Both the position numbers and the translations under genes were made by a program. 64,000 nucleotides of DNA from a virus: IMG/VR virus record IMGVR_UViG_3300026118_000002, positions 1 through 64,000 of that record. One strand, 5' to 3'. The notes under the pieces were generated by a model. That model did no database searches. It saw only the letters and a list, made by a program, of their open reading frames with translations, and was not told the origin of the DNA. Of this stretch, positions 2,746 to 58,511 are shown piece after piece (within the stretch, counting starts at the first letter, position 1; each line of letters opens with the position of its first letter).

Positions 2746-2767
2746 TATATCGTGAGAATACGATATA
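2746..2767. promoter_or_regulatory. Inverted repeat between the divergent promoters
   Basis: An 8-bp perfect inverted repeat, TATATCGT and ACGATATA, is separated by 6 bp. It lies between the leftward promoter and the rightward repressor promoter. Its sequence differs from the two operators at 2693-2729, so it may be the site of the other regulator. Confidence 0.5.
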
Positions 2768-2781
2768 GTCATCGCAATACG

Positions 2782-2810
2782 TTGCGTATACGCAAACCTT
2801 ATGCTATAGT
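2782..2810 (+). promoter_or_regulatory. Rightward repressor promoter with palindrome
   Basis: TTGCGT (2782-2787) and TATAGT (2805-2810) are 17 bp apart. The -35 box is half of a perfect 14-bp palindrome, TTGCGTATACGCAA, at 2782-2795. The predicted start near 2817 lies after the AGGAGG at 2811-2816. The message would then begin at or next to the ATG at 2818, as in leaderless phage repressor messages, unless an upstream promoter is also used. Confidence 0.55.
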
Positions 2811-2826
2811 AGGAGGCATGACAAAC

Positions 2827-3246
2827 ATGGCGGTTGCAGCCTATTTCCAGACGTTACGCGACAATCGCCGCGCACCGAATGGAAAGCGCCTGACGCAGGC
2901 GCAGTTGGCGCGAGCGGTAGGTAAGCATCTTCGTCGTAAAGTTGATCAGTCTACCATTAGTAAAATCGAGTCGGGTAAAGAGACTCCTATGGGCGATGTT
3001 ATGGCCGCTATGCTTACTGTGCTTGGTGGTCGTTTAGAGGATGTGTTGCGGTTGGCGGGAAGTGAAGATGCGCCCGACAAGGGAAGGGAATTAGCGCGAG
3101 AAGTACTTGTGGCGGAAATCCCGACTGAGGGTGAACTGGAGCGGCTTATTGCCGATTGGCATGCTGATGAGCAGATGCAGCGTTCTCTTCGCCGGGTATG
3201 GCGCGCTCGCTCTGGTATTCATGCCACCGGCGACGCAAATCAGTAA
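2827..3246 (+). CDS. XRE-family repressor, 139 aa
   Basis: The N-terminal helix-turn-helix (LTQAQLARAVGKHL, then DQSTISKIESGKETP) matches the XRE/Cro-C1 fold over residues 10-75. The C-terminal half is helical and lacks the Ser-Lys self-cleavage domain of LexA-like repressors, so induction by RecA-driven cleavage is unlikely. The start is uncertain: ATG 2827 has AGGAGG ten bases upstream, while ATG 2818 has it one base away but could serve a leaderless message. It is divergent from the Cro-like gene and is the best candidate for the lysogeny repressor. The last 101 bases overlap a convergent membrane-protein gene. Confidence 0.8.
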   Translation: MAVAAYFQTLRDNRRAPNGKRLTQAQLARAVGKHLRRKVDQSTISKIESGKETPMGDVMAAMLTVLGGRLEDVLRLAGSEDAPDKGRELAREVLVAEIPTEGELERLIADWHADEQMQRSLRRVWRARSGIHATGDANQ

Positions 3247-3961: not shown

Positions 3962-4261
3962 ATGACCACAGAAAACCCAGCGCCGATGTCGCTGGCTGAC
4001 TATGAGGCAATTAAACGTTGGCTTCGTCAGCAACACCCTGATCTCGCGGATGGTCAATGTGTTCGGTGTCAGCGCGAGGTTCCGCTGTGGGGACTCCGTC
4101 TGGTTCCGCTTCCTGGTCCGAATATCGCGCCGATGCTTGCGGTGGGTTGTCCGCTGTGTGGTCACATACTTCTATTTGATTCATTGAAGGCGGGAGTGCG
4201 TGATGCAATAGGGCTGCCCCGCGATATGAATCTGGATTCAACGGATCGGGATCAGCCATGA
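3962..4261 (+). CDS. Zinc-ribbon protein, 99 aa
   Basis: CVRC near residue 33 and CPLCGH near residue 68 form a two-knuckle zinc ribbon. Both knuckles are well spaced for metal binding, which is the main support for this frame. It starts at ATG 3962; no strong ribosome site is visible. It follows the SHOCT-like gene and is overlapped on the opposite strand by an open frame from 4403 to 4011. The function is unknown. Confidence 0.65.
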   Translation: MTTENPAPMSLADYEAIKRWLRQQHPDLADGQCVRCQREVPLWGLRLVPLPGPNIAPMLAVGCPLCGHILLFDSLKAGVRDAIGLPRDMNLDSTDRDQP

Positions 4262-5252: not shown

Positions 5253-5337
5253 CCGCGTCGGGACATAGCGAAGCCGAGCGACGGCGCGTGTCAGGCACTA
5301 CTCGTCAACGCGCCACGCCCGGCCCGTCACACATCAT

Positions 5338-5381
5338 AGCGTATCTCGTGTCGCCGCGCAAGCGATGACACGAGATACGCT
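5338..5381. repeat. 15-bp perfect inverted repeat
   Basis: AGCGTATCTCGTGTC (5338-5352) pairs perfectly with 5367-5381 around a 14-base loop. There is no T-run. The right arm ends at the -35 box of the promoter at 5381, so this may be an operator or a terminator of the lipoprotein transcript. It lies in a 390-base gene-free stretch (5253-5642) that also holds two promoters and one terminator. Confidence 0.7.
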
Positions 5382-5409
5382 TGACGGCGTTGGTGATCGG
5401 TGGTAGGAT
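5381..5409 (+). promoter_or_regulatory. Promoter reading into terminator
   Basis: TTGACG and TAGGAT are separated by 17 bp. Transcription would start near 5416 and meet the strong terminator at 5446-5483, giving an RNA of roughly 70 bases unless read-through occurs. Confidence 0.5.
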
Positions 5410-5445
5410 AGGCGCATCATCCTCCCCTTCTCACCCAGTTGCTCA

Positions 5446-5483
5446 CACCCCCGCCGTGCTCGATAGCACGGCGGGGGTGTTTT
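5446..5483 (+). terminator. Intrinsic terminator, 15-bp stem
   Basis: CACCCCCGCCGTGCT (5446-5460) pairs perfectly with 5465-5479 around the loop CGAT, followed by TTTTGTGTG. This is a textbook strong rho-independent terminator. Confidence 0.9.
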
Positions 5484-5518
5484 GTGTGTGTGTGAAAACA
5501 ACGTTATCTGATTGTCAT

Positions 5519-5548
5519 TTGACATGTGGCTATGTAATCGGCTATACT
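5519..5548 (+). promoter_or_regulatory. Promoter of the lysis region
   Basis: TTGACA (5519-5524) and TATACT (5543-5548) are 18 bp apart. The upstream sequence ATTGTCATTTGACA is nearly the same as ATTGTCACTTGACA at the 17401 promoter, hinting at shared recognition. It lies downstream of the terminator and 95 bases before the amidase gene. Confidence 0.75.
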
Positions 5549-5642
5549 AGGCGCGAGGCACTACTCAATCGGCGCAAGCCGGGGCGGGTGGTGTCTTTTC
5601 TGATTCCACGCCCGCGACCGGCATTCTGGCGAATGGGTCAGC

Positions 5643-6500
5643 ATGCCACAGCTCACACCACAACTCGATAGCCTCATTTCACTTGATCTCAGCGCCCAGA
5701 TCGCGCAAATCCCACTCCATGCGGGTCATTCCGTTTTGCCCCCGCGCGGTCCCGAGCAGTACATCACGCTCCATTACTCAGGCGTCGATTACTCTGATCG
5801 CTCCCCAGCAGCAGAGAGGGCGCGTATCCTTGAAGAGGCGCGCTATCAGATCAACCATGACTACGGAACCCCCGGCAACCCTGCCTTCCCCGATGGACTC
5901 CTGTACGACATCGTTGTGCTCTCCGAAGGCATTGCTGTGCTCACACGCCGCAAGCGCGTCCAGCTCTGGCACTGTGGCAACGTAGCGGGCAACAAACTAA
6001 GCTGGGCGGTACACCTGATGCTCGGCCCCAACCAAGACGCCACTGACGCGCAGTGGACCATGACGACGCGCGTGTTCGACGCACTCATGGTCGATTGCAG
6101 TATCGCCCGCGTCAACGTGATCGGCCACGGCGAATGGCCGCGCAAGACCGGTCTACCACAGCCCAGCACAGCCTATCGGGTGCTGCCGGGGCAATCCGAG
6201 TGTCCCGGACGTGTGCTGCATGGACGCTTGGCGGCATGGCGGTCAAGTACCCCGCCCATTCCCGCCGCGTCTGACATCTGGGCGCTGTGGGGCAGCCGCT
6301 ATGCGCTCCCTGTCGAGGCGCGCAACAACGGTATCCCAGCCTTCTGGAAGTCCAACACCTGGCTTGGCGAGGCACGTTCAGAGGAAACGTTCCCCGGCGC
6401 GGGTGATGTGAGCGTGTGTGTGTTCCAGTCGGGCTATATTGTGTACGAGAAGGCAACCGGGCATTGCACGGTTCAGCATCTCGAATCGAGGCTGCCGTGA
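5643..6500 (+). CDS. N-acetylmuramoyl-L-alanine amidase (endolysin), 285 aa
   Basis: The protein matches the amidase-2/PGRP fold. It has the first zinc histidine in ITLHYSG (His44), the central WHCG motif, a VIGHGEW segment, and a CPG turn near the domain end as in T7-like lysozymes. It would cut the amide bond between muramic acid and the stem peptide. There is no signal peptide, so release would need a holin. A C-terminal region of about 90 residues after the amidase domain may bind the wall. It is the first gene after the 5519 promoter and overlaps the next gene by one base. Confidence 0.8.
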   Translation: MPQLTPQLDSLISLDLSAQIAQIPLHAGHSVLPPRGPEQYITLHYSGVDYSDRSPAAERARILEEARYQINHDYGTPGNPAFPDGLLYDIVVLSEGIAVLTRRKRVQLWHCGNVAGNKLSWAVHLMLGPNQDATDAQWTMTTRVFDALMVDCSIARVNVIGHGEWPRKTGLPQPSTAYRVLPGQSECPGRVLHGRLAAWRSSTPPIPAASDIWALWGSRYALPVEARNNGIPAFWKSNTWLGEARSEETFPGAGDVSVCVFQSGYIVYEKATGHCTVQHLESRLP

Positions 6501-17400: not shown

Positions 17401-17429
17401 TTGACACCAGCGTGCGCGCGTGCTAGACT
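17401..17429 (+). promoter_or_regulatory. Head-module promoter
   Basis: TTGACA (17401-17406) and TAGACT (17424-17429) are 17 bp apart. The upstream bases ATTGTCACTTGACA match ATTGTCATTTGACA at 5511-5524. Transcription would begin near 17436 and read through a structured leader before the scaffold gene. Confidence 0.8.
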
Positions 17430-17439
17430 AAAGGCTACT

Positions 17440-17517
17440 GATCAGGGTGGCAGTGTGAGTTGAACACGCTGGCCTAACAGCACGGAAATGCAGGTGGAAT
17501 GCCTGCCCGCCCTGATC
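17440..17517 (+). ncRNA. Candidate structured leader RNA
   Basis: The predicted 5' end of the transcript starts an 11-bp closing stem, GATCAGGGTGG (17440-17450) with 17507-17517, containing one G-U pair. Inside are three small hairpins: GTGT/ACAC, GCTG/CAGC and GCAGG/CCTGC, the last with a 7-base loop. The outline is cloverleaf-like, but conserved tRNA bases are missing. A terminator follows after 26 bases, so this may be a sensor domain of an attenuator. No known riboswitch class is recognised. Confidence 0.4.
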
Positions 17518-17543
17518 TCCTAAGTTCATCCATCCGACGATCC

Positions 17544-17585
17544 AACGGGTCGCATCTCTTACGAGACGTGACCCGTTTTGTTTTG
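17544..17585 (+). terminator. Attenuator-like terminator before scaffold gene
   Basis: AACGGGTCGCATCTC pairs with 17563-17577 over 15 positions with one mismatch around the loop TTAC, followed by TTTGTTTTG. It lies downstream of the 17401 promoter and 20 bases before the scaffold start. Expression of the head genes from that promoter must therefore read through it. A near copy stands at 37859-37899. Confidence 0.85.
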
Positions 17586-17604
17586 CCCAGAATAAGGAAC
17601 CACC

Positions 17605-18192
17605 ATGAGCGACCCCACACCGCAGCCGGCGGGTGCCCCGGCGAACGAACCCCCGGCCCAGCCGCCGGCCCCGATTGTTGCGGCGATCCCACCGACGCCT
17701 GCTCCGGCAAGCGCGGGATTTACCCAGGAACAGTTGAATAGTGCCATCGCCGACGAGAAGCGCAAGTGGAAAAAGCAGCAGGACGATGCGGCTGCCGAGA
17801 TCAAGCGCAAGGCGGATGAGGACGCGGCGGCAGCGCGCGGCGAATTTGAAAAGCTCGCCAACGACCGCGCGACCCTGATCGCGAAGCTCGAAGCTGATCA
17901 CGCGACGGTGACTGCGCAACTTACAGCGTATCAAGAAGAGATGGAGCGCCAGATCAAGGCGCGCGTCAAGGTGCTGCCGGAAGAGATTCGTGAGATGAAG
18001 CCAGACGGCGATCCGTTGGTCGTGTACGCCTGGCTGACGAAAGCCGAGGCAGCGGTGACCAAGCTCACGCCCCCGACGGCGACGGTACTCGGCACACCGC
18101 CCGGCCCGGTCGGCGGTGGCGCACAGCCAAGCGCGTTTGCGAATGGCGATCTGCTCGCACAGAAGCGCGCGAGTGGCGACTATGCGATCTAA
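17605..18192 (+). CDS. Scaffold protein, 195 aa
   Basis: A Pro/Ala-rich N-terminus (about 40 residues) is followed by a long charged coiled coil (EKRKWKKQQDDAAAEIKRKA and onward) and a short basic C-terminus. This is the usual make-up of phage scaffolding proteins, which guide capsid assembly and leave before packaging. AAGGA precedes the ATG. It is the first gene after the promoter, leader and terminator cassette. Confidence 0.75.
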   Translation: MSDPTPQPAGAPANEPPAQPPAPIVAAIPPTPAPASAGFTQEQLNSAIADEKRKWKKQQDDAAAEIKRKADEDAAAARGEFEKLANDRATLIAKLEADHATVTAQLTAYQEEMERQIKARVKVLPEEIREMKPDGDPLVVYAWLTKAEAAVTKLTPPTATVLGTPPGPVGGGAQPSAFANGDLLAQKRASGDYAI

Positions 18193-18204: not shown

Positions 18205-18606
18205 ATGGCTCTGATTACGAAAGATGCGAATGCGAGCTTGGACGCGGCCAGCGCCGCCGACGCGCCGCAGCGCTCAAGTCTGACGGCGGGCGAGGCGCTC
18301 GACAGCCTTGCGCCGTGCTATATCAAGGGTGCCGATGGACTCGTGTACATGTCCAACGGCACGGCAGCGAATGAGGCGTCGGGCTTTGACGGCTTTACGC
18401 CGAAAGCCTACGCCATCGGCGCGTCCATGGTCACGTTGTTCGGCATCGGCACCAAGATGCGCTATGCAACCGGACTGACCCCCGGCGCAAAGCTGTACAT
18501 CGCCGCAACCAAGGGCCGGCTCGATGACACCGCAACCACCGGTGACGCGGTGGGAGTCGCGCGTGCTATCAACGCAACCACGATCCGCATCACGCGCGAC
18601 GTGTAG
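18205..18606 (+). CDS. Head decoration (cement) protein, 133 aa
   Basis: A small beta-rich protein (GADGLVYMSNGTAANEASG, then GLTPGAKLYIAATKGRLDD and a final ITRDV strand) lies between scaffold and major capsid genes. Sequence style and position fit the DUF2190-like capsid decoration family, which stabilises the shell after expansion. ACAGGAG precedes the ATG. Confidence 0.75.
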   Translation: MALITKDANASLDAASAADAPQRSSLTAGEALDSLAPCYIKGADGLVYMSNGTAANEASGFDGFTPKAYAIGASMVTLFGIGTKMRYATGLTPGAKLYIAATKGRLDDTATTGDAVGVARAINATTIRITRDV

Positions 18607-18627: not shown

Positions 18628-19695
18628 ATGGCTCCGATCGTTGGCACATACGATATTAGCTCACTCCTCAGCGTGCGCTTTCAGTCCATCGATGCGTTCG
18701 GCATCGATACGGTCGTGCAGGTGCTCAAAGACGACCTTGCGGCGCATAACGCGATCGTGCAGGAAATGATGGCCGATCTGTGCTTTAGCACCGTCGATAC
18801 ACAGGGCATCTACGGCACCGGCACGACCGGCGAGATGAATGAGGTTGACGAGTACGGGCGCACGGAGACGCAAAAGCAGACACCCGGCGCGCCGGTGGCC
18901 TGGCCGTTGCGCCTATTCCAATTTGCCGTCGGCTGGACGGCGAAGTACATGGAGATCGCCACGCCCGCTGATCTGGCCTTGCAGCAGATCGATGCCGAGA
19001 AGGCGCATATGAAGGCGCTCCGTCGCGATGTGAAGCGCGCGATCTATGGCAGCGCGAACTACACCTATATCGATCACCTGATCAATAACTATCCGCTGCT
19101 GGTCAAGCGCTTCGTCAACGCCGACAGCGCGGCGATCCCGGATGCCCCCGACGGTTCGACGTTCAACGCATCCTCGCACACGCACTACGACGCATCGGCG
19201 ACGCTGACCACTGCGGTGGTTGACGCGGCGATCACCGACCTGATCGAGCACGGCCACGGCGGGCGCGTCAAGCTCGCCATTCACTACAGCAACGCCGCCG
19301 CGTTCGCTGCGCTAACCGGCTTCGTCGCCGCGCTGCCGCAGTATATCCAGGTGCCGGCCTACAACGTCGCAACGCCAAGCGTCCGCACCGATCTCGGCAA
19401 TCAGTACAACCGGCTCGTCGGCTACTACAACACCGCTGAGGTGTGGGTCAAGCCATGGGCAATCGCGGGTTATATGTTCCTGTGGGATAGCGCATCAAAC
19501 GGCAAGCCGCTGGCGTATCGGCAGCGCAACACGCTAGCTACCCGACAAGGTCTGCGACTTGCGGCGGAACTGCCCGACTACCCGCTCTACGCCAAGTACT
19601 ATGAGGCTGAGTTCGGCATCGGTCAATGGGTACGCACCAACGGCGTGGTCGTGCAATTCACCAACGCGTCGTATCAAGACCCAGTTATAACCTAA
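18628..19695 (+). CDS. Major capsid protein, 355 aa
   Basis: Size, position after scaffold and decoration genes, and a sequence with a long internal helix (LALQQIDAEKAHMKALRRDV) and C-terminal beta strands fit an HK97-fold capsid protein. There is no clear cleaved N-terminal delta domain; the separate scaffold gene supports that. AAAGGAAG precedes the ATG. It should be the most abundant product of this operon. Confidence 0.8.
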   Translation: MAPIVGTYDISSLLSVRFQSIDAFGIDTVVQVLKDDLAAHNAIVQEMMADLCFSTVDTQGIYGTGTTGEMNEVDEYGRTETQKQTPGAPVAWPLRLFQFAVGWTAKYMEIATPADLALQQIDAEKAHMKALRRDVKRAIYGSANYTYIDHLINNYPLLVKRFVNADSAAIPDAPDGSTFNASSHTHYDASATLTTAVVDAAITDLIEHGHGGRVKLAIHYSNAAAFAALTGFVAALPQYIQVPAYNVATPSVRTDLGNQYNRLVGYYNTAEVWVKPWAIAGYMFLWDSASNGKPLAYRQRNTLATRQGLRLAAELPDYPLYAKYYEAEFGIGQWVRTNGVVVQFTNASYQDPVIT

Positions 19696-37792: not shown

Positions 37793-37801
37793 TGCTATAA
37801 T
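37793..37801 (+). promoter_or_regulatory. Extended -10 promoter
   Basis: TGCTATAAT gives a consensus -10 with the TG extension; no -35 match is visible. The start near 37808 would precede a hairpin (GGGCAGC/GCTGTCC) and then the terminator at 37859. Confidence 0.7.
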
Positions 37802-37858: not shown

Positions 37859-37899
37859 AACGGGTCGTAACTCTTGCGAGTTACGACCCGTTTTGTTGT
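37859..37899 (+). terminator. Attenuator-like terminator, second copy
   Basis: AACGGGTCGTAACTC pairs perfectly over 15 bp with 37878-37892 around TTGC, followed by TTTGTTGTG. The preceding TTCATCC and CCGACGATCC are also found before the 17544 terminator. The stems of the two copies differ at several positions but keep pairing. It lies between a promoter and the 61-residue gene. Confidence 0.85.
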
Positions 37900-37919
37900 G
37901 TCTGAAAAGAGAAACGCAT

Positions 37920-38105
37920 ATGAAGCCCATCGCACCCACACCGCCCGCCGCGCCGGTCATCCCGGCTCCGCAGGTGCCCGCACTTACGGCGCTACGCGCG
38001 GGGGCGATCTATAAAGACAGCACCGGCAGAAGTAGCGCAGTCTTGGCGGTGCTGAAAGACGACAATCGTGCGGCGGGCAGCCCCGGCATTACCTACGGGC
38101 CGTAG
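37920..38105 (+). CDS. Small fibre-module protein, 61 aa
   Basis: A Pro/Ala-rich start (APTPPAAPVIPAPQVPAL) leads into TALRAGAIYKDSTGRSSAVL and a GITYGP end. This repeats the C-terminal 40 residues of the FN3 protein upstream. It is the first gene after the second attenuator cassette. It may be a free copy of a binding or trimerisation module. Only a weak GAGA ribosome site is seen. Confidence 0.6.
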   Translation: MKPIAPTPPAAPVIPAPQVPALTALRAGAIYKDSTGRSSAVLAVLKDDNRAAGSPGITYGP

Positions 38106-45940: not shown

Positions 45941-45984
45941 ATAATAAGAGGTGTGGGGAAGATATTCCCCACACCTCTTATTAT
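45941..45984. terminator. 20-bp perfect inverted repeat, bidirectional terminator
   Basis: A 20-bp arm at 45941-45960 pairs perfectly with 45965-45984 around GATA; the centre is GTGTGGGGAA/TTCCCCACAC. It lies upstream of the nuclease gene and overlaps the -10 box of its promoter. In a transcript from the upstream gene the full hairpin forms; in the nuclease's own message only about half would. Confidence 0.8.
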
Positions 45985-46008
45985 AGCACAAATGCACTGA
46001 ATGATCAA
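45980..46008 (-). promoter_or_regulatory. Promoter of the nuclease gene
   Basis: Leftward TTGATC (46008-46003) and TATAAT (45985-45980) lie 17 bp apart, with the TG extension. The start near 45973 falls inside the 20-bp inverted repeat. Confidence 0.7.
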
Positions 46009-55237: not shown

Positions 55238-56362
55238 CTATGCCGCATGCCTGAGTACCTTGATCGACTCTAGCCGCTCCAATGCCTCTCGCATCGCTAC
55301 CACTTGCACCTTGACATAGCTCGATGTGACATCGGCATCAGCGTGACCCGCAATCGCCTGGATAATGTCGTGGCTTGCACCGGTATCACCTAGCCAAGAG
55401 AGGCAGGTGCGGCGTAAGAGGTGGAAATGAACATTGCGGATGCTGGCCCGTTTGAGCGCGGCCTTAAAATGCCGATCAAGATTGCGCTCACTCATTGGCG
55501 TGCCGCGCTCTGATGCGAACAGCAACCCGCTTTCTGGTACGCCTTCCGCCATAATTTGCTCAAGTCGCATCCGCAAAATACCGCACTGGCGATGCGTGAG
55601 TGGCAGTACGCGGATGCGACGGTTTTTCGTGTATTGCTCAATCGACGGCCTGCCGTCTATGTCCAGCACCTGCTGTCGGATCGTGATTGTACGGGCTTCG
55701 AGATCAAGTCCAGCGATCTCCAATCCGAGCAACTCGCCCTTGCGGATGCCTAATTCGACCGCAAGTACATACAGACCAGAGAGACGGTGTGATGTGACCG
55801 CTTCGAGAAGTGCGGCGGCTTCGAGGGTTGTTAAAGGATCAGGCTTCTCGTCATGCACAGGTGGTGTTTCAACCGCCAGGATCGGGTTGTATCCGATCCG
55901 TCGATCATCTGTCGCCTGAGTCAGTGCTGTTCGTAGGACGGTGTACGCATGACGGATCGTGCGTGGTGAGAAATTGCCGACTTTCATGTCGGCCAGCATT
56001 GCGCGGATATGATCGGCGGAAAGCGCTTCGAGCCTGATATGTCCGATACGAGGGGAGATGTAAAACTCACATATCTGTTTGTAGAAACGCAGTGTTTTGG
56101 GCTTTTTGTTCGGGGCGACGATGGTGGAAAGCCAGTGCGCAAGCCAATCATGGAGCGGGATTTTGCCACCGGGGATATTTACGCGTCCGTCTTTTTGCTG
56201 TTCAAGTTCCTTGCGTTTGGCTTTGGCGGCTGCTTCCGAAGCACAACGATAGTTGTATTGCTTGCCGTTTTGCGAGATATAGGCCCACCATTGTCCGTTT
56301 TTGTCCTGGTAGTAACCGCGCGCCCGGCGAGCGGGGCGCTTTGCATTCTTGGAGCTTCCCAT
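55238..56362 (-). CDS. int: Tyrosine integrase, 374 aa
   Basis: The catalytic residues are visible: Arg207 (GIRKGELLGL), Lys246 (YTKNRRIRVLPL), His314 and Arg317 (HFHLLRRTC), His340 (AGHADADVTS) and nucleophile Tyr349 (SSYVKV). Residues 1-70 form an AP2-like arm-binding domain (GYYQDKNGQWWAYI) and 70-170 the SAM-like core-binding domain. It should recombine attP with a host tRNA-Thr gene. GGAGG precedes ATG 56362. It lies beside attP and overlaps the excisionase-like gene. Confidence 0.95.
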   Translation of the reverse strand: MGSSKNAKRPARRARGYYQDKNGQWWAYISQNGKQYNYRCASEAAAKAKRKELEQQKDGRVNIPGGKIPLHDWLAHWLSTIVAPNKKPKTLRFYKQICEFYISPRIGHIRLEALSADHIRAMLADMKVGNFSPRTIRHAYTVLRTALTQATDDRRIGYNPILAVETPPVHDEKPDPLTTLEAAALLEAVTSHRLSGLYVLAVELGIRKGELLGLEIAGLDLEARTITIRQQVLDIDGRPSIEQYTKNRRIRVLPLTHRQCGILRMRLEQIMAEGVPESGLLFASERGTPMSERNLDRHFKAALKRASIRNVHFHLLRRTCLSWLGDTGASHDIIQAIAGHADADVTSSYVKVQVVAMREALERLESIKVLRHAA

Positions 56363-56547
56363 TTGTCGCCTCCTTGTTCCATCCATGCCACGAGCGCGTC
56401 AACGGACTTCGCAGACACGAGCGTTCCTTTTCCGCGCCCACTGGAAACAAGGATGCGTTCATGGATGAGCCGACGCACGGTTTGATAGCTGAGATTCAGG
56501 ATCGCTTGTGTCTCGCTCATTTTATAAAAAGCTGACTGAATTGTCAT
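56179..56547 (-). CDS. Excisionase-like HTH protein, 122 aa
   Basis: An HTH of the excisionase/MerR type is clear (ETQAILNLSYQTVRRLIHER) with a wing (GRGKGTLVSAKSVDALVAWM). This part ends before the integrase start at 56362; the frame then continues for 184 bases inside the integrase gene. Either the protein has a long tail, or the message is read with a shift. It is the natural candidate for the recombination directionality factor. Confidence 0.65.
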   Translation of the reverse strand: MTIQSAFYKMSETQAILNLSYQTVRRLIHERILVSSGRGKGTLVSAKSVDALVAWMEQGGDKWEAPRMQSAPLAGRAVTTRTKTDNGGPISRKTASNTTIVVLRKQPPKPNARNLNSKKTDA

Positions 56548-56644: not shown

Positions 56645-57565
56645 TTAAACAGCCAATTCCATTACTTCCTGAGAGAGACGACGAACGGCAACCTCCACGT
56701 ACTCTACCCCAATCTCGATCCCGATCGCGCAACGGCCCAGGTTCTTGGCTGCCCGTAGTGTTGTGCCACTGCCTGCTGTGAAGTCCAATATCGTGTCGCC
56801 GGGGTTTGTATGCGTCGTGATAAGATACTCCATAAGCGCGAGCGGCTTTTGGTTAGGATGAAGTCCATCGAGCCGATTGCCGTTATTCATTGATATAATG
56901 GTTGTTGGATAATACTCATCACTGATACGGGTCGTTGAGTGGTGTTGCCCCCAAACGGACGAGGTGCGCCGCATCCCGCCCTTGGTGCGTAATGCTCCCT
57001 TGCGAAGAAGGGGATTGTAGGTTGCTACGCCGCTACAAAACACGGAGATTAGCTCATGCTGTCGTAATGGCTGATGTTTTGCGTTTAGATAGCCTGTCGG
57101 CATATGCTTATCCCAAATCCAATCGTATTTGTACCAACTAGGATTACTTGTTCGCAGTAGACTACTAAACGGCTCCTGTCCGAACAGCACGATTGCGCCA
57201 CGCGGCTTGATCAGTCGCTTTAACTCTCTCCACATCGCATCAAGCGGGATCGGACTATCCCACTCACTTGCTGTCGTGCCGTAGGGTGGATCACAAATGA
57301 CGGCATCAAGGCTGTGATCGGGCAGCGTCGGCATGACCTCTAGACAGTCACCGTGATAGATCGTGATACCGTTATGTTCATAGTAGGGCTGCATCGTCAT
57401 CTCATTATCCGTCTCGTCCGTCTCACTCACAACCGGCATCCCCGTCGCCCTATCGTCACTACTGCGATAGTAGCCCGCCCTCACCCCGCCACACTGCGGA
57501 CTGTACCAGTACCACGGCACGCCACTGCGCAGCACGCAGAGCGGCCAGGAGGTGCGCTGTGTCAT
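56645..57565 (-). CDS. DNA methyltransferase (DPPY type), 306 aa
   Basis: The catalytic DPPYGT (residues 92-97) comes before the SAM-binding DFTAGSGTT near residue 272, the beta-class order of N6-adenine or N4-cytosine methyltransferases. The first 55 residues (to TDNE) are an unusual Trp/Tyr-rich extension; ATG 57565 overlaps the stop of the next methyltransferase by ATGA, while ATG 57400 would give a family-typical start. No restriction enzyme is visible, so it likely protects phage DNA. Confidence 0.8.
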   Translation of the reverse strand: MTQRTSWPLCVLRSGVPWYWYSPQCGGVRAGYYRSSDDRATGMPVVSETDETDNEMTMQPYYEHNGITIYHGDCLEVMPTLPDHSLDAVICDPPYGTTASEWDSPIPLDAMWRELKRLIKPRGAIVLFGQEPFSSLLRTSNPSWYKYDWIWDKHMPTGYLNAKHQPLRQHELISVFCSGVATYNPLLRKGALRTKGGMRRTSSVWGQHHSTTRISDEYYPTTIISMNNGNRLDGLHPNQKPLALMEYLITTHTNPGDTILDFTAGSGTTLRAAKNLGRCAIGIEIGVEYVEVAVRRLSQEVMELAV

Positions 57566-58511
57566 AGCCACAACTCCGTACTGACCAGTTGCACACCATC
57601 AGTTCTGCGCGCCTGCATATCGCCATAGCCAAGATCGACGCCGATTGCGTTGCGCTGGAGCTTTGTCGCGGCACGTAAGGTTGTGCCGCTGCCGGCGAAC
57701 GGATCAAGGATCGTGTCACCGGTGCCGCTGCCTGCGAGAATGCAGCGTTCGGCGAGTGCCTGTGGCATCGGCGCGTAGTGCTCTTCAGCGGGAGCCCGTG
57801 CGATGGAATATCCCAGACAGTGCGACAGTGCCGATCAATGAGCGGGGCAAGTTGCGCGGTGCTGGGTTCGCGTCGCCCGGAATTGAGCGGCGCATTTACA
57901 ACGCCCTTCGATCCGCGCGGGGAGCGCGGATCGCCGTTGACCGCCGGTACCTTGACGGCATCCATATTGATATAATAGTTGCCCTGCTTACTGAATAAAA
58001 AGACTGTTTCATGGTCGCGACTGAACCGATCACCAGCCGCATTTCCCTCTGGCATCGCATTTCTTTTCCACCAGATGATCTCATTTCGCAGTACCCAGCC
58101 CTGATCTTGCAATGCAAACGCCACGCGCCACGGCATGCCCATCAGCGATTTTGGCGGCAATCCGGTCGTCACCCGCCGCGCACCGGGCCGATCTTGCGTC
58201 TGCTTTCCATGCAGACCGTCGGCGTGCTTGCCGCCTGTCGAGCCGCCCCATTTGCCGTCATTCGCGTAGCAGTCGCCTAAATTAAGGAACAACACACCGT
58301 TGTTTTTGAGTACGCGCCAGCACAGCAGGAACACATCTGCAAGCGCGGCGACATACTCGATATGCGTTTGCTCTTGGCCGATCTCGCGCGGGTCGTCTGT
58401 GTACGATCGCATCCTCCAATATGGGGGCGATGTGCAAATCATCTGCACGCTTCCAGTAGCAAGCGTCGGAAGGAGTTCACGGCTGTCGCCTTGTAATATT
58501 TCAATACTCAT
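57562..58511 (-). pseudogene. DNA methyltransferase (TSPPYW type), frameshifted
   Basis: The N-terminal frame (58511 to about 57796) carries TSPPYW (residues 27-32), FLNLGDCY and NEIIWWKR, typical of N4-cytosine and related methyltransferases. The C-terminal part (DTILDPFAGSGTTLRAA, GVDLGYGD) is in another frame, from about 57795 to the stop at 57562. Adding one base in the CCC at 57795-57797 would give WDIPSHGAPAEEHYAPMPQ and restore a full protein of about 315 residues. This could be a real inactivation, a programmed shift or an assembly error in a homopolymer. Confidence 0.75.

Follow-up and report, generated by a model that had tools for sequence, protein, structure and literature searches.

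In this temperate phage, the ribosome-binding site of the first head-assembly gene comes immediately after an intrinsic terminator, which is itself preceded by an untranslated leader and a predicted sigma70-type promoter. As read from the sequences, many related phages have this promoter-terminator order in the corresponding slot, and the phage itself repeats it before two other late-gene blocks. We tentatively favor a model, which we hold to fall somewhat short of probable, in which a late promoter for the head genes is gated by its terminator and opened by antitermination in a manner resembling lambda pR'-tR'. What is said here of promoter use, termination and read-through is predicted from sequence.

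The window, that is, the whole stretch of DNA analysed, corresponds to positions 1 to 64,000 of a virus record of 77,332 bases (Table 1). The + strand carries most of the late genes, which span about 5.6 to 40 kb, and the - strand carries the early genes. The temperate lifestyle is indicated by the presence of an integrase and a repressor-like gene. The host is likely a member of the Chloroflexota, because relatives of the small head protein sit in Anaerolineae and Ardenticatenaceae assemblies (L293 and L294); the third assembled-genome match of this protein (L292) carries the label Rhodobacteraceae. To our knowledge, late-gene control in Chloroflexota phages is almost unstudied.

Table 1. Predicted control elements and genes in the window.
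Feature	Position	Strand	Basis
Third module: promoter TATACT (5543-5548), hairpin (5557-5595), tail TTTTCTG	5519..5599	+	folding
Sigma70-type extended -10 promoter, TTGACA-17-TGCTAGACT	17401..17429	+	sequence; same-slot promoters in relatives
Closed multi-hairpin leader	17440..17517	+	folding; weak, sub-threshold resemblance to skipping-rope RNA
20 nt 5' of the terminator stem, largely common with the second module (TTCATCC..GACGATCC)	17524..17543	+	sequence comparison
Intrinsic terminator, stem 17544-17558/17563-17577, loop TTAC, tail TTTTGTTTTG	17544..17585	+	folding; compensatory changes relative to paralogue
Ribosome-binding site AAGGAA of the scaffold-position gene	17594..17599	+	read directly
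Scaffold-position gene, 195 aa, coiled-coil-like, first after the terminator	17605..18192	+	role inferred from flanking portal-position and head genes
Conserved small head (decoration-like) protein, bait for relatives	18205..18606	+	role inferred
Major head protein	18628..19695	+	phrog_3990, E 2e-32
Extended -10 promoter TGCTATAAT of the second module, with a short hairpin leader behind it	37793..37801	+	
Terminator of the second module, paralogous to that at 17544 (84% identity across 58 nt); a small tail-region gene follows at 37920	37859..37900	+	
Integrase	55238-56386		
Repressor-like gene	2752-3246		

The promoter before the head genes combines a -35 hexamer TTGACA (17401-17406), a 17-nt spacer with a TG extension and a -10 hexamer TAGACT (17424-17429), and has the top + strand promoter score in the whole 77.3-kb record. 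Sites with nine of 12 consensus matches are not rarer than expected by chance (two found, 3.9 expected), so the support for this promoter comes from its position and from the relatives. Transcription is predicted to start at about 17436, 4 nt 5' of the closed leader structure. In that structure, a closing stem of 11 bp including one G-U (17440-17450/17507-17517; pair probabilities 0.97-1.0) encloses three hairpins (17453-17467, 17468-17481 and 17490-17506). The fold reaches -38.5 kcal/mol with a z-score of -3.85; none of 200 shuffled sequences folded as well, and neither did most windows of similar GC from the phage's own genome (29 of about 5250, or about 0.6%, did so). A short ORF in the leader (ATG near 17488, MQVECLPALIS), a candidate leader peptide, is devoid of a good ribosome-binding site. 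The terminator hairpin (17544-17577; z-score -5.94) has 15 stem positions, made up of 14 pairs, one of them G-U, and one A-C mismatch. The scaffold-position ATG follows about 20 nt past the T-tail, and this gap is too short for another promoter, so the promoter at 17401 could reach the head genes by read-through only. An earlier note on this DNA had proposed a good promoter, an 11-bp-closed multi-hairpin RNA starting at the predicted 5' end and a 15-bp-stem terminator with a T-tail, in this order before the scaffold gene, with transcripts that would stop unless read-through is allowed. The coordinates were right, folding reproduced the closing stem and the three hairpins, and the terminator and its tail were confirmed with a stem that is not perfect. 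The order also held, and so did the predicted dependence on read-through, both at a position that is conserved in relatives.

Two more modules of the same phage repeat this arrangement. The second carries a copy of the head-gene terminator, and the two hairpins (17544 and 37859-37892) differ at 4/15 stem positions. Two of these differences are two-sided and keep the pair (C-G to T-A and T-A to A-T), while a mismatch is replaced by a pair at the third and a G-U by a G-C at the fourth. With two copies, such compensatory changes are suggestive, not proof, of selection on the hairpin. The flank that both copies carry 5' of the stem did not turn out to be a shared phage element, as none of the 16 viral contigs carrying its 16-mer has it before a terminator. 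The hairpin of the third module was found by folding and falls below the strict rule of the terminator scan; the module precedes the endolysin gene, which starts at 5643. The whole region before that gene (5337-5600) is a dense control region with a long inverted repeat (AGCGTATCTCGTGTC..), where a promoter at 5404 with a terminator at 5445-5480 occurs besides the promoter at 5543 with its hairpin and T-tail.

The head-gene slot was then compared among related phages. The major head protein alone gave one close relative (65% identity) and a two-sequence alignment search gave five, and the adjoining small head protein gave 42 viral loci and three assembled-genome loci. Before the scaffold-position gene, many of these relatives have an extended -10 promoter, a leader of 30-120 nt and a strong terminator. 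A joint scan with fixed thresholds on the coding strand of 397 kb, with near-duplicates removed by hand, returned nine promoter-then-terminator pairs, of which eight, the window's own included, fell within the 450-nt slot before the scaffold gene, a figure to be read as enrichment and not as an exact probability since some examples were already known when the thresholds were chosen. Five block-shuffled versions of the same 397 kb gave no such pair. Further examples fall below the strict thresholds (L254, L262, L282, L293 and L294). Whole-record scans at a looser threshold returned pairs elsewhere too, some probably by chance, and many relatives are without the unit, often having no intergenic gap at the slot.

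The leaders between promoter and terminator are mostly not homologous among the relatives and are often barely folded. Short hairpin leaders are found in L249, L275 and L283 and nearly unstructured ones in L254 (-3.3 kcal/mol) and L262 (-3.7 kcal/mol); the leader of L272 takes a different three-hairpin fold, and that of L252 has a tRNA-like arm. Small common pieces occur within pairs of relatives only (L254/L262, L253/L283 and L293/L294), and an alignment of the scaffold proteins revealed no conserved blocks. No homologue of the window's multi-hairpin element was found among the matches listed in our searches. The earlier note had made its proposal depend on a homologous structure in relatives, which is missing for the multi-hairpin element and present for the promoter-terminator unit. 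In L254, L262, L272 and L275, the scaffold-gene promoter has TTGAC 7-8 nt 5' of the -10 hexamer, too close for a -35 element and possibly a candidate binding site between -35 and -10. This motif is absent from that position in the window's promoters, and no conserved DNA element was found in them.

These comparisons bear on the proposal, also made in the earlier note, that the layout is a riboswitch or an antitermination-controlled attenuator. A riboswitch or classical attenuator, whose leader would be refolded by a ligand or protein so as to disrupt the terminator, would agree with the presence of a structured 5' leader followed by a terminator. However, Rfam scans and the relatives' leaders revealed no conserved aptamer and no Rfam riboswitch, the Rfam scan of the whole window returned nothing, and no mutually exclusive pairing of leader and terminator rose above that of shuffled leaders (duplex -13.4 kcal/mol, shuffle mean -13.5 kcal/mol). 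Moreover, the relatives keep the position of the terminator without the window's leader, and theirs differ and are partly unstructured. Because the leaders are mostly non-homologous and the pairing is no better than shuffled, refolding control finds little support and we regard it as very improbable. The riboswitch half of the proposal is therefore unsupported, while antitermination control is still the best reading.

In the preferred model of a terminator-gated promoter, unaided transcripts from the 17401 promoter and from the upstream terminase and portal genes would end at about 17585; those from the promoter would be leader RNAs about 150 nt long. In the late phase of infection, polymerase would become resistant to terminators close to the promoter, most likely through an as yet unrecognised antiterminator encoded by the phage, and would go on to transcribe the scaffold, decoration and capsid genes. 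Leaders vary among the relatives, so the signal for loading would more likely be found around the promoter or in the polymerase than in any particular leader fold; possible roles of the closed multi-hairpin RNA are protection of the 5' end or assistance with loading. We prefer the gate because the promoter-then-terminator order, and not the reverse, persists before genes that must be strongly expressed. Speaking against it, neither N, Q nor any other known antiterminator was recognised among the proteins scanned, and no pause element was detected.

The same order could also arise from a fixed attenuator, a leaky terminator that sets the ratio of packaging, promoter and head transcripts without a dedicated antiterminator. 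It calls for no further component, and indeed no antiterminator was recognised: PHROG matching gave none in a scan of about 50 proteins, most of them from the early region, and the Q families PF06530, PF03589 and PF06323, the last scanned without a positive control, gave none above cut-off in the window's record and nine relatives, several of them fragments. The window's tail TTTTGTTTTG is interrupted, which makes partial read-through plausible. However, the terminators of L252, L254 and L275, with long stems and uninterrupted T runs, should stop polymerase efficiently, yet they precede the genes needed in the largest amounts. A fixed attenuator is a possible, rather unlikely explanation.

Alternatively, the unit might be a small-RNA gene producing a trans-acting noncoding RNA of about 150 nt, parked between the portal-side and scaffold genes. 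Its predicted product, a stable closed RNA from about 4 nt after the 5' end that ends in a terminator, would suit such a role, and phage skipping-rope RNAs share the promoter-RNA-terminator form. Against this, the slot is conserved and the RNA is not, and the head genes would be left without a nearby promoter of their own, which makes the small-RNA explanation unlikely in our judgement.

The terminator-gated late layout is already known, and the unit in the window would best be read as a variant of it. The lambda Q protein is loaded at a promoter-proximal site and suppresses termination before the late genes (PMC7171158). As at lambda pR'-tR', late genes in the window stand behind a predicted sigma70 promoter, a short leader that is not translated and an intrinsic terminator, and their expression would need read-through. 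In contrast to the lambda Q system, no Q of the tested families was detected above cut-off and no QBE or pause element was shown; a -10-like pause element was not enriched after the promoters over shuffles (p 0.70, 12 leaders). Also, lambda has one unit heading the late operon, whereas this phage has several units per genome, one of them amid the morphogenesis genes. The likeness to pR'-tR' is accordingly proposed for the layout, and membership of a Q family is not claimed.

In phage HK022, antitermination is achieved by a 5' RNA alone, and putL, just downstream of its promoter, gives a putRNA of about 70 nt with two stem-loops (PMC9378689). A put-like leader that itself binds RNA polymerase and confers terminator resistance in cis could be envisaged here too, as in both cases the transcript's 5' end forms a structured RNA of 70-80 nt upstream of a terminator, and the pairing in the window extends over 78 nt, beginning about 4 nt past the predicted start. 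However, the HK022 RNA consists of two adjacent stem-loops and serves early genes, whereas the window's leader is a three-hairpin junction closed by a long stem, precedes late genes and has a fold not conserved in relatives, which keep the same promoter-terminator layout with short or unstructured leaders. We consider a put-like leader decidedly improbable. Apart from the promoter-terminator layout, none of the components that define lambda Q or HK022 put was found. Conservation of the slot in distantly related phages that have no recognised Q means that they use an antiterminator of an unrecognised kind or else tolerate strong terminators in their most expressed operon. The further proposal that each late block of Chloroflexota phages is gated by its own promoter-leader-terminator unit, through a factor or RNA other than N, Q or put and with the three-hairpin leader as the RNA part, appears doubtful to us.

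The leader was also compared with known structured RNAs. It scored 16.7 bits against the skipping-rope RNA family RF02924 (threshold 36.7), with E-values of 0.0155 for the 77-kb record and 0.21 for a local scan, values of the kind that miRNA families attain by chance in other leaders. On a phage skipping-rope model built from nine phage members, with the window left out, the leader was missed with default filters and reached 14.1 bits once they were switched off, compared with 41-65 bits for strong matches not used in training and 26-29 bits for tRNAs. Skipping-rope RNAs resemble the window's leader in the long closing stem, the hairpins, a promoter and terminator of their own and the occurrence in phages, as well as in the GA(G/A)AUG linker (GAAAUG) and the last 3' hairpin abutting the closing stem. 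Closing stem, linker and abutting hairpin are not specific, because the same features arise in tRNAs, and the window's leader lacks the 5' GAGG..GGAA..GGcagCC part. Below threshold, below tRNAs on the phage model and without the 5' half, the leader was rejected as a skipping-rope RNA. Reading it as a tRNA or tRNA-like RNA found no support either, neither ARAGORN nor RF00005 having recognised it. The motif GGAAATGCAGG..CCTGCC recurs in phages and was discarded as well, its commonest example being a tRNA.

Rfam-confirmed skipping-rope RNAs were found in the phage contigs L059, L173, L179, L180, L193, L208, L215, L216 and L226. Several have a clear sigma70 promoter and a terminator, and those of L180, L208, L215 and L226 lie in or adjoin tRNA genes. 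Related closed RNAs with an AGAAACACG closing stem and the GGAAATGCAGG motif are present in L019 (minus strand, near 4082-4154) and L341 (3955-4027), and were called neither as tRNA nor as skipping-rope RNA. The relative G003 (L376, about 19100-19235) has a promoter with a tRNA-like sequence and a terminator downstream of it.

Other features were noted away from the head genes. In L291, two near-identical long hairpins (TGTTCATACAGTGAACA..TGTTCACTGTATGAACA) lie inside the replication-initiation gene region (4029-4157; record 67029-67157) and are possibly a replication origin, as in lambda O. In the window, two overlapping minus-strand ORFs (56645-58511) each match parts of the DNA methyltransferase family phrog_67, possibly representing a split or frameshifted gene. 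A strong hairpin at 45945-45985, with T-rich tails on both strands, abuts a minus-strand TGTGCTATAAT promoter.
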